Shown here: positions 28,701 through 34,700 of the stretch, piece after piece
How the letters are laid out: the number at the start of each line of letters is the position of its first letter
How positions within the stretch are numbered: the first letter of the stretch is position 1
Position numbers and translations under genes: made by a program
NCBI GenBank assembly: GCA_026874595.1
Contig: CM049306.1
Span: 105,289,142-105,353,141 of the forward strand
Source of the DNA: Sipunculus nudus
Taxonomy: Eukaryota; Annelida; Sipuncula; Golfingiida; Sipunculidae
Length of the DNA stretch: 64,000 nt
Direction of reading: 5' to 3'
The notes under the pieces: generated by a model
Told to the model about the DNA's origin: nothing
Seen by the model: only the letters and a program-made list of their open reading frames with translations
The model's database searches: none

Positions 28701-31700
28701 TATACTGAAGACCAAAAAAAACAGTGGACGGGAACTTGCCACCCCTGCTCTCAAAATATGAATAGACATGGGTTGTGTTTGGAGGGTACTGCTTATGATG
28801 TGTCACCTGAAATTAAAGAAACAAAGTGTCAAAGAAATGTAAAATGCTTTGTGTACATCTAAAGAAAAACTAAGTGAGAGCTGAAAACAAGGGCACTAGT
28901 CAGGAGGTTTATAGCTGCAAGGTTAAGTTAAAGGCTGTTGGGCCTCTAAAGCTTGGGCAGTCCAGGGTTGTTCCTTCTCCTATTACACGTTCTTTGTCCT
29001 GTTAATGAACAGAGACTGTTTTTGTTCACAAACACGAACATGTTCGAGTGCGTTGATCAAGAAAATTTATGTAAGATACATGTATATGTGTATATGAACA
29101 ATGCGTTTTGGTATTGGAACAGAAACATGTTTCTGTTTGCATCATTTTTTTAGACCAGGTAAAAGGAGCATGTTCTGAGAACAAAAACACACCCATGTTA
29201 CTGTAGAGTGATGCTGTTAACCTGAAAAAAAAAACACTCCCATGTTACTGCAGGGTGATGCTGTTAACCTGAATAAACACACCCATGTTACTGCAGGGTG
29301 ATGCTTATTTACAGTTAACCTGCCATAAACTGTCTTTTACAGTCAAAATCTGCTCAATCTGCCACAAACCTTAGTCATACTCACATTTTAACTATTCATG
29401 TAACATATATTTTATTACATCAAACCCCCACTGGATATTTGCAAGTTTATGAGTTTCCATGTTAAATTCATACATAACAATTATAATAAGCAAACAATAT
29501 GCCAGTTTTTGCTGACACTCTCGGAGACCATGCTCTCATTTATGAGGTGACATGGTCACGCCCACAACACTGAATGGGGAAATTAGAATCCAGTACTTAA
29601 ATATTAAGTGTTAATCTAAATGTACAATATTTTTGCAGTCAGTGTATCTTTGATGTTTCCCAACCCTACCAACTTACTGGGTGCAACTAAATCAGATTTA
29701 TACATGTTCCTTTATGAACATATTTTCTGATACATTTTTAAATTGTTATGGCACCAAAAATTACACTTTCATCACATTACTTTCTGCCCTGAGTAAAAAT
29801 GTTTACCACACATAGTGTGTCACACTTGATGATAATCTGGATAAATCCAATTGCTATTAGCCCTCTGGATTAAGCCCATTGCTAAGCTCTTTACTTCAAT
29901 TACACAACTCATGAAAGAGCACTTGGTGAGTCTGTTATTTACCATACTTAGCTGTCAATCAAGATAAGATTATCATTAGAGTATATACATCTGGGAAAGT
30001 GCTGCAGTCTAATTACTGATAAGACTATCACAGTCCTTATCACAGTGTAATATATTTCATGATCAGTTAAAGAAATAAACTCAACATCTTTTATCAGTTG
30101 CACATGATATCTAACTTGTATTCAGAGCCATAAGCTAAGATGATTAACAGGTTAAGCTTAGCAGTCTTTTATATAGTTGAAAACCTATGAGCTACACTGT
30201 ATGTTATTATGATATTCCCTAAATACAGGAGCAACATTGACAGAAAAGTAGCACTTGTTTAGGGTCAGCCAGTTGAGCTAAAAAATCACAGACCCTAACA
30301 TGATAATAGTAGTGCCCGGATATTTATATTTTCTTATACCAGTTAAATATATTACACAAATGATTAATAGAACTGGTCCAAGTATGTGGCTTAAATTTAT
30401 CCATCTAAATGAGGCTTAATGTCAAATTAACCATATATATACTCAATTAATTTCAAGTAAACAAGCAGAAATGAGAATTATGTGAAAATTAAATTATTTT
30501 CATAAAAAATATTAAAGGGTTTCATTAGGATGATGAAATAAAACTAACTGAGCTCAATACCATTTTTTACTTGTCTTTTTACTTGTTATTGTATAAAGGA
30601 AATCTTCTGCAATGAGTTCATGATAGAACGCATCTTATTTAGTTAATTTAAACCAAATATACTCACATACATCTTACACATACAATCTTAATCTGTTTAT
30701 CTGTGTTATCAATTATAATATAATTACTTGTGAGTCATGCATATTTAAAGATTATATCCTTGAATAATAAGAGTCTAGTAATGGAAATTGAAGCTTATGC
30801 TTGATAATTGTTTGTTAACATTCCCTTTAATGATTTATCATGCATTCTCTTGGAAATTTCATATTTGGCCTGAAGAAATAAAAAACATGTCCAAGGCTTT
30901 GATTAGTTTCAGTAAAGGGTACAAGACAGAAGGGCCTGGCTAATACACCAGTACTGTGAAACTGTTCATATGTGAATATGTGCTAAAGTTCACATAGTGA
31001 ATCACATAGTGATTAAAAACTAATTAAGGGCAATTCCATGAAAATGGTCCATAGAAGGTAGATTTTCAGAAAATGGAAATATGGACATGATATACACCAA
31101 AAGAAAGCTTAATATGTACAGTGTTTGCCTAAATAATTCTTTTTTTAATTATTCTGATTATTTCTGTGATATGTTGCAATGAATTGTGGGATGCGTGCCA
31201 TCTCTTTATAGAAAATATGTATGGTGATTGATACAATAACATATATGCATGATTTGGGTTTATGTTTGGACTTTACTGACAGATATTAATTTTATGGCAA
31301 TTATATACTATGAGCTTGCCATCTGTACCCCAACCCTAAAGTTAGAATAAGTTTTCTTCCATAAGTGACATACAGATATACAAGCAGCTATCATCTTGTA
31401 ACATGTCACTCCGTAACAACATTTTTCTTTTATTTTTGCCACCACTTGCAACTTAACAGTTAATGAAATAAAAATCATATAACAATTAATGACTTCTAAG
31501 ACACTGTTGGTTTATTCTGAGATTTTGTTACAATAAGTTTTTGTAGCATCTTAAAGCTGAAAAAAAATGTTATCACTCCGTAACGTTGTGGAGTGACAAG
31601 CATTATCAGTTCATCAATTTGACAGAGTACAGTGAGACATTTTAAGTTTAGCTGGTCCGAATGTTTTCTTTTAACCCACCATTTCCATTTTTTCCTGTTT

Positions 31701-34700
31701 TGCATACTTTGAAAAGGTTATAACATTAAAATCTAAATTCTTTTAATTTATTTTTATTAGAGTTTTGATACTAAAGCATTGAAGGCAAAGAATAAAGCCA
31801 GGAAGCATTAAATAGTAAACTGCCTTATTTTGAATAAGACATGAATAGCTGTTAGGCTTAGTCCAACAGCAACCTATCAGCAGAGCCTATCCAGAAATTT
31901 CATGGTCCACAGCCTCTAGCTTATTTTCTACAAAAATAAATCAATGTGAAATTTCCGGCATGATTATTATTATGAAATTTATTTTCTATGTTGGCAGTAT
32001 TGTAAAAGTAATACGTAAATATTCTTCCATTTTTTTAATGCCACTAAGTCTTTCTGTTTATGGTTTATAAAAAAATTAGTTGCCTGTTAGTGTCACCCAA
32101 GCCATTCTGTACAGTACCAGTTTTCTAGTAAAAGATTAATTTTTAAAATGTGTATGTCTAGGAGTCATATTATGGCATGGAAAGCATCTGTCAATACATT
32201 AATAATCCATTGACTTTTGACCCATGATATTTACCTTTCCAGGAATTTGACCATCAGTTTACCAATGAATATCTTGCTTGAGTTTTCAACTAAATTTGCC
32301 CATATCTTATAAGGTTATGTACAGGTCACAAGACTTTAGTTATTAAGTATTAAGCACCAAGACTGGTGCTGCGTTTGATTGAGCTATAGTGATATTAAGC
32401 TGCATATCTGTTAAAAGTGTACTTTTGGACATACAAAAGGGATAAAACATGCAGTCCCCCTCCCCCCCCCCCCCCCCCCATATGGACAGGATTCTTAAAC
32501 AAGAGGAATATTATAATTTTCTATGTTTAAATAATAGTTTGTACTAAAACACTGATACATTTTGAAATTTGTTTTGTATTACAAGAGGTTACAATGATTA
32601 AAGTTTAGATGGTCATTATGTGAGGAATTCATGCCAGAGGTACCTGAACTAAAGAAGAGTTCAAAATTGGTTGCAATCATTTCTGTCATGTGTGAATTTG
32701 AATATAAAAGTTGGAAATGTTTAATAATAATTTAAAATTTTAATTAACATTTGATTTTGTTTATCCCTCATACAACTGACAAGGGTTTGGACAAAAACCA
32801 ATGTCGAGGATTATCACAATATCTGACAGCTGTGATAGTTGAATAACTTCCATGTTATTGTGATATCATGATATGCTTATTTGTCCACAGTTTTGGAACA
32901 CACACATGCCCTTTTAGGGTTAATACCAAAAGATTATGACATCACCAGGGTTTTCTGTGTTCAGAAAATCATATTTTTTTCAAGGATAACATTTATTTTA
33001 ATATGGGTATGTTCAAAATGACAGCGGCGGACAAACTGACAGAATCACATGCTCTGAAAACTGGTGATTTGCCTGCTAATAAGTAGTCAGACATGGCAGA
33101 TGGCACTGACATTTGTTATATGTCGTCAAATGCCAGAGAACTCTTGCCTGTTAATTATATTACAATACCATGAAAGATAGTGTTAAATTCTATTTTAATA
33201 TCATGAAATAGAAAAGTGATATCATCCCAACTGACAGTGTGTCTACCTAATCTGAAAAGTTAATTCTTAATCAAATTTACTGAATCATTTATTTTAGTTG
33301 ATAACAGTAAGCATGTAGTTTAAATTGCAAACCTATTTCCACTCCAAAATACAAAACTTTGTTTTAAAATATTGATCCAATGAGTCATCCAGAATATATG
33401 TTGTGGCATGAAGGAAATTTCTAGTACTGGATAATTTCATTAAAAGTTAGGTCAAACTTTTAGAAAATAATAAAATACTTGATAAAAAATTGTGATTTTA
33501 CACAAATTTTATTAACCTGTCTCAGCATGTATAATCATTGTAGTTGCCCAAGCAACCTCACATGAATTTGAAACTAAGGATGTAATGAAGGTAAGGTGAC
33601 TATACATGCTGGACAGAATTATCAGTGGAACTGCTAAAATGGCTGTACCTTTATGATATAAAGTGCAACAATACAAAAAAATAAAACTTTTCTGTACGCC
33701 TGGATCTGATAAATCTTTATCATAGTCAAATTTGACTGAGACCCGTGATCCATGGAATCTTGTCAAAGTCAGAATACTTATTAGAAAGCAATGTAAATGG
33801 CTGAAATAGCTGTCATCTTCCTTTGTCAAATAAATTACTTTCTCTTCATGGTCTGACAGTGCCTGGTAAAGTTTTTAACAGTTTAACATTAAACACTGTA
33901 AATATATAACTTAAAGGCTTTTCAATTTGCTTGAATAAGTGTTAAGAAACAGCATTTAATCACTGTTTTGCTATATATGTGACATGCTTAACCAACTTGT
34001 CACTCCGTAACAAAGTCTGTGTCACTCCGTAACAGCAATCCAGGATCACATTTCTAAAATCAAGCATGATATCTGGTTCTCCCTCATATTTGCTGAAAAG
34101 GGTTATTTCCTGGGCTAACGTTTGCTGTATACCAGATTGTAGTATACTATTTCAATGAGCAGACTTTTGGAATTATTCATTGCTTGGTCCTGTTATGCAA
34201 TTTGTCGCTGTCACTCCGTAACCAACTTTTTATCACTTTCTGATCAGAAAATATTTCAGCATATGAAAATCCAATTTACAGGAAATGAAAGTCATAAAAC
34301 ATATGTACACATATATCCAAAAAACTTTTTTCTCAAATGTTTGAGTAATCCTTATATGGTTCAATACATTAATTCTGTAGGGTCAAATGTCACTCCGTAA
34401 CATCATGGAATTGCCCTTAAATGTTCTTAAGTGAACTATCCACTTATTTCACTTTCTCTCTTTTCTTTTAATAAACTTGGAGAAAATTTACAATCTGGTG
34501 TTTGACAATCTGGTGTTGATAGTCTTGCCCAACTATAATATACTTTAAGTGAACTTAAATAGTGATCAGAATTAAGTTATAAACAGTTATAAAAATATTA
34601 TTTAAGCTTATCATGAATATCCACTGGAATTTACTCTACACCCTTAAATGCTCCCTACCAGTAATATAACACAGGAACTGGTGTTGTGGACTTGATGATA

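Follow-up and report, generated by a model that had tools for sequence, protein, structure and literature searches.

The DNA analyzed here, referred to as the window, is a stretch of 64,000 nucleotides from the genome of Sipunculus nudus (assembly GCA_026874595.1, contig CM049306.1, positions 105,289,142 to 105,353,141 of the forward strand). The window contains two exons of a gene that we take, from its exon motifs, to be NAMPT. Exon 1 (TDSYK) lies at ~35.57 kb and exon 2 (YFESRGG) at ~28.8 kb, both on the minus strand. The intron between them carries a 3389-bp element with inverted ends and several copies of a 15-bp motif, referred to as the box. The element was first described in a prediction made from the letters of the window alone, which placed it in NAMPT intron 1, and the exons found on either side agree with this placement. 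It is almost certainly a DNA transposon of a family whose target is not TTAA. The features of the element are as follows.

31028..34416, unstranded: non-autonomous DNA transposon, 3389 bp with the flanking TTAA excluded, delimited by the homology limits of six other copies
31024..31027, unstranded: left target-site duplication TTAA; the 4-bp flanks differ in other copies
34417..34420, unstranded: right target-site duplication TTAA; here too the 4-bp flanks differ in other copies
31028..31041, plus strand: left terminal inverted repeat GGGCAATTCCATGA, matching the right end perfectly
34403..34416, minus strand: right terminal inverted repeat, matching the left end perfectly, with little variation among copies
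31404..31418, plus strand: box 1, exact, present in 7/7 copies with 0-1 changes
31571..31585, plus strand: box 2, two mismatches, at the homologous place in copies
31584..31598, minus strand: reverse box, three mismatches, overlapping box 2 as a near-palindrome; one base closer to the box in the six other copies
33998..34012, plus strand: box 3, exact, deleted in one copy (L037)
34020..34034, plus strand: box 4, exact, deleted in L037
34209..34223, plus strand: box 5, one mismatch, at the homologous place in copies
34388..34402, plus strand: box 6, exact, directly against the right inverted repeat; also present in a diverged copy seen from its right end (L060)

The inverted ends GGGCAATTCCATGA form a perfect 14-bp pair and, with the outer TTAA on both sides included, occupy 31024-31041 and 34403-34420, exactly as predicted. 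The next best TTAA-anchored inverted pair within 12 kb in the window measures 12 nt, if a local palindrome at 24894-24943 is excepted. When the element was compared with itself, direct repeats reached no more than 29 bp in length. The element contains a run of 18 C (32462-32479), and L060 has a C run at the matching place; the window as a whole contains 13 runs of at least 10 C or G.

Direct evidence that the element is a transposon comes from its copies in the 1.43-Gb assembly (153 contigs). The left 597 bases, used as a query, gave ten matches including the window copy. Six of the nine other left-end matches span bases 5-597 at 90-95% identity, and the remaining three are partial at 74-82%. 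Because the six matches begin at base 5, TTAA is not common to the copies. At the other end, five of these six copies stop exactly at 34416 after matching from 31028, and the alignment of the sixth (L038) runs 9 bases further. Seven copies with both ends are known when the window copy is included, and L060 provides an eighth right end that carries a box and the inverted end. The copy number is therefore at least eight, a lower bound that derives from the left-end query.

The flanks of the copies define the target rule. The left and right flanks of the six other copies are AGGT/AGGT, ACAC/ATAC, AGAT/AGAT, ATTT/ATTT, ACGT/ACGT, and ATTT/ATTT, compared to TTAA/TTAA in the window. In other words, 4-bp duplications are exact in six of the seven copies, take the form ANNT in five, and are TTAA in one. 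L060 shows ATTT on the single side that is seen. Within the genome, exact matches to an 18-mer that includes the TTAA are confined to the two ends of the window copy. All seven copies have GG...CC ends. The element is identified as a cut-and-paste transposon by its multiple copies, their shared inverted ends, and the direct duplications of the target. The original prediction of a transposon with real ends is thus upheld, since copies share both ends and 4-bp duplications, and the other genomic copies that it proposed to look for exist as six more full-length ones. Its proposal of a TTAA target, with piggyBac and Kolobok as the comparison, fails because other copies duplicate AGGT, AGAT, ATTT, and ACGT; TTAA is a chance target of the window copy. 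A single copy can mislead in this way: the hint of piggyBac or Kolobok given by TTAA arose by chance, and the target rule is visible only from the other copies.

The copies fall into two subfamilies, one formed by the window copy, L037, L038, and L041 (95-98% identity within) and the other by L039, L040, and L042 (96-97% within), with ~90% identity between them and a pairwise range of 89-98%. The window copy is the most diverged member of its subfamily. L037 (2603-5031) and L039 (~3382-4581) contain extra stretches of 2.4 kb and 1.2 kb, respectively, which are probably later insertions.

Two other readings of the ends were tried and rejected. A Harbinger-type 3-bp duplication does not fit, because the left and right 3-mers differ. 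TTAA together with the inverted end reads TAAGGGCAA and matches the THAP1 site in the form printed in the accessible text of PMC4177242; this candidate was dropped because TTAA is not part of the element.

The second feature of the element is its boxes. The predicted six copies in one orientation were confirmed as six forward boxes, but only four of them are exact (the box at 34209 has one mismatch and that at 31571 has two), and a seventh box lies in reverse. The reverse half that had been noticed after the box at 31571 is this overlapping reverse box (31584-31598, three mismatches). The last box abuts the inverted repeat as described, with box 6 ending at 34402 and the inverted end starting at 34403. 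All six forward boxes share an exact 12-bp core, TCACTCCGTAAC, which occurs six times on the plus strand of the window, each time inside the element. With up to three mismatches allowed, nine box matches were counted in the window, where 1.24 are expected, and seven of the nine fall inside the element; none of 100 shuffles reached nine. The exact box was found in none of 40 dinucleotide shuffles of the element. All seven boxes are confined to the outer 575 bp on the left and 423 bp on the right, and the 2.4 kb between these outer parts has none. The probability of such clustering is about 0.0005 to 0.001 in a test that was chosen after the boxes had been seen. The box itself is a partial palindrome (TGTCAC-TCC-GTAACA).

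Does the element descend from a transposon that encoded its own transposase? The longest stop-free stretch in the element is 120 aa, a length reached by 33 of 500 shuffles, and none of the 33 stop-free pieces of 35 aa or more had a convincing match in Pfam (the best, with an E of 0.017, is below the curated cut-off). The original prediction spoke of an otherwise decayed element. No coding remnant above chance is present, and the coding part of the window copy appears to have been lost or replaced rather than to persist as a decayed gene. Three blocks of the element, at element positions 88-382, 1020-1350, and 2748-2976, align in unchanged order with L044, a partial and diverged relative. These blocks lie in the window as follows.

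31115..31409, plus strand: colinear segment (L044 3828-4135, to the left of the L044 transposase remnant), 75% identity
32047..32377, plus strand: colinear segment (L044 6429-6780, to the right of the L044 transposase remnant), 69% identity
33775..34003, plus strand: colinear segment (L044 6804-7014), 72% identity

The first and second blocks are separated in L044 by a broken transposase gene, and in the window element by 0.64 kb that is unrelated apart from a 70-bp inverted piece. Window 32055-32124 matches part of the transposase gene (L044 5285-5353) over 70 bp in inverted orientation, at 78-82% in the seven copies. On the simplest interpretation, the element arose from a coding element of this kind by loss of the gene. 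The relatives with a transposase that the original prediction had proposed to search for are thus represented by L044, although its gene is broken. One open piece of the L044 gene, used as a query against the genome, gave 27 matches including L044 itself, some with long open frames. Two of these, L077 (297-2498, open for 734 aa) and L078 (1602-2885, open for 428 aa), represent a transposase-like family with the motifs DFxEN, (S/T)DGxxSQ(F/Y)KN, and GKGPxDxxGG. The L077 protein aligns with L044 in several pieces over most of its length (the best at E ~1e-26, with neither composition correction nor the low-complexity filter applied), and the two share the motifs DFxENY, SDGAxSQF, and GxxDGIxG. 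Searches of the L077 and L078 proteins against ten loci (the seven copies, L043, L045, and L060) found the gene in none of them; only L038 gave matches, with E of 0.1 and 0.9. Taken together, colinearity and shared motifs suggest that the 3.4-kb element very probably derived from an element with a transposase of the L044/L077 type.

These observations can be joined in a model that we consider probable, in which the element is a non-autonomous cut-and-paste transposon with a coding ancestor and is mobilized by a transposase supplied in trans that uses both the ends and the boxes. The family of the 3389-bp element is small and has two subfamilies; the inverted ends are 14 bp long, and the 4-bp target duplications mostly read ANNT. 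The ancestor of the element would have been longer, and a gene for its transposase, lost here, would have lain between the left end and approximately position 1020. A transposase made by another genomic locus would bind the inverted ends, and the same transposase may also bind the boxes near the ends as accessory sites. The bound transposase would then cut the element and re-insert it. A dimeric binding protein would fit the partial palindrome of the box.

Several results weigh against this model. Neither the transposase pieces nor the L077 protein was recognized in Pfam and PDB searches, with no convincing Pfam match. L044 shows no recognizable inverted ends at the expected limits, and its status as a full element of the family is thus putative. 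Six of the seven boxes point the same way, and binding sites at the two ends of a transposon often mirror each other. The boxes are also no better conserved than their surroundings: among the seven copies they vary at 39/721 bases (5.4%) compared to 388/6628 (5.9%) in the rest of the ends, and 42% of random placements are as low. Because L037 was aligned by force where its boxes 3 and 4 are deleted, the box rate is inflated; without these two boxes, the counts are 31/588 for boxes and 342/5175 for other end bases, with no clear difference. In L060, four boxes are identical at 51/60 bases compared to 623/753 elsewhere, which is no real difference, and only the box beside the inverted end is perfect. 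The inverted ends vary at just 1 of 195 aligned bases in the seven copies. The original prediction had considered selection on the boxes, but boxes vary as much as the surrounding DNA, so selection on them since the insertion of the copies is not shown by the rates. An equal rate is nonetheless what would also be expected of a binding site, because inserted copies no longer need to move.

Protection of CpG dinucleotides in the boxes was also considered. Within an element that is poor in CpG, the boxes retain six of seven CpGs. Relative to the window copy, 8/80 box-CpG bases are changed in the other copies compared to 34/122 other CpG bases, a comparison biased by the use of the window copy as the reference. 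This candidate was weakened because the flanking intron is as CpG-poor and the overall box rate is no lower than that of the surroundings.

The strongest alternative, which we regard as somewhat doubtful but serious, accepts the same transposon and denies the boxes a part in transposition. They would be a leftover internal repeat of the ancestor, inherited passively. The similar variation of boxes and surrounding DNA and the dominance of one orientation are both consistent with this explanation. So is L037, whose ends and duplications are perfect despite the loss of boxes 3 and 4, although this loss may postdate insertion. However, a 15-bp unit at six places near both ends with an empty 2.4 kb between them is hard to obtain by drift. 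The boxes otherwise occupy homologous places in the copies. In addition, the diverged left end L043 keeps box 1 at 14/15 bases compared to 294/355 identical elsewhere. The chances that the boxes are accessory transposase-binding sites, for which they are candidates, seem to us evenly balanced; we favor such a role slightly over a passive repeat.

Boxes also occur elsewhere in the genome, which has 116 exact ones in total compared to four for the reversed pattern. Of the 116, 17 lie in the seven copies and one in L060. We examined 31 loci outside the seven copies that were chosen for an exact box and form part of 100 listed places. In 27 of them a script identified the box, on the other strand, as the first 15 bases of a repeat that resembles a long terminal repeat (LTR), and L059 was added as the 28th by eye. 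The LTR-like loci are L046, L048-L059, L061-L066, and L068-L076. L060 is the transposon copy, and L047 and L067 are neither repeat nor transposon. Alignment of twelve loci gave a terminal sequence of ~155 bases with the ends TGTTACG and CGTAACA. A purine-rich run precedes the next copy, the unit is ~275 bases long, and several loci have more than one terminal start. The repeat also contains a tRNA-like B-box sequence and, in some loci, a stretch like a primer site after the terminal sequence, which we presume to resemble a proline-tRNA primer site; in 10 of the 31 loci, the first ten bases of this stretch are found no more than 250 bases from the box. To judge from this arrangement, the repeat looks like a very short, TRIM-like LTR retroelement.

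It is improbable that the boxes derive from the 5' end of this LTR-like repeat or share an origin with it. The identity of the box with the first 15 bases at 27 of the 31 loci favors such a relationship, but the boxes of the element have no LTR sequence next to them. Moreover, most second LTR starts, where visible, differ from the box at one place, which is mostly G where the box has A. The loci were picked for an exact box, so the frequency of the match is not measurable from them, and the exact matches may be the tail of a larger repeat family one base away. By our estimate, a large repeat library may well contain a 14/15 match. The original prediction had counted boxes dispersed without the inverted ends as evidence against its reading. 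Dispersed boxes are present, but the transposon reading stands, because it rests on copies with both ends and duplications. A very unlikely extension of the model is that the one-way boxes form a directional loading platform for the transposase, with the two ends handled differently, and that the LTR-like 5' terminus shares the box because one host protein binds both kinds of mobile DNA end. Viral contigs contained eight single boxes and no ends, and patterns joining a box with an end or two boxes gave no matches. Bacterial genomes gave ten single 18-mer matches compared to ~7.5 expected by simple arithmetic.

Other repeats were seen in the window. A 21-bp tandem repeat of 36 copies, with several frames open on both strands, lies at 20122-20878. 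Tandem copies of a ~300-bp repeat that are 65-78% alike occupy 43697-44581, and two copies of a repeat giving ILERGG-like peptides lie at 4798-4877 and 51342-51414.

We know of no report of this transposon family. A search of the open-access literature for the box and end strings, with Repbase and subscription papers outside its scope, returned only papers with unrelated titles (e.g., on carbapenemase primers). The element belongs to an ordinary class of DNA transposons, in which it is unusual. With its family, one can ask in a compact natural setting if a poorly studied transposase benefits from subterminal boxes that point one way.

How does the family compare with known superfamilies? KolobokP, a Kolobok lineage without strong target preference, is described in the accessible text of PMC9587614 as having 3-5 bp duplications, an 11-18 bp inverted repeat, terminal direct repeats of about 450 or 660 bp, an internal part with a His-Me finger nuclease and a DDD/E transposase, and nonautonomous members of 1.7-3.3 kb. 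The element resembles this description in its GG purine ends, the length of its inverted repeat, its variable 4-bp duplications, and its weak target preference (PMC9587614), and its 3389 bp is near the nonautonomous range. Yet the long terminal direct repeats that define KolobokP are absent from the element, in which no direct repeat exceeds 29 bp, and membership is hardly likely. A piggyBac or ordinary Kolobok element with a TTAA target is extremely unlikely, because the TTAA on both sides of the window copy and, for Kolobok, the RR/YY ends are outweighed by the AGGT, AGAT, ATTT, and ACGT duplications of the other copies. As far as the accessible text of PMC2872659 describes them, piggyBac ends start with CC[C/T]T, whereas the ends here start with GGGC, and the duplications are not TTAA-specific. 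For ordinary Kolobok, the accessible text of PMC9587614 gives TTAA-specific duplications with 5'-RR and YY-3' ends; the element has such ends (GG...CC) but lacks the duplications.

The superfamily is perhaps Sola, a comparison of duplications and inverted ends that was made by description only. Sola2 elements have 4-bp AT-rich AWWT duplications and 12-13-bp inverted ends, or in other cases imperfect ends of 21 bp, according to the accessible part of PMC3627910, and Sola elements are recorded in bivalves in that of PMC10294476. The short inverted ends, here 14 bp and perfect, are similar to those described for Sola2, and the AT-rich 4-bp duplications such as ATTT may be so too. However, strict AWWT occurs in only two of the seven copies (ATTT in both), and AGGT, AGAT, ACGT, and TTAA are also duplicated. 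The L077-type protein may be similar to Sola proteins. Another parallel is provided by En/Spm, in which a short motif that serves as a subterminal binding site is repeated many times near both ends. The element differs from En/Spm in that its motifs, with putative binding, nearly all point one way.

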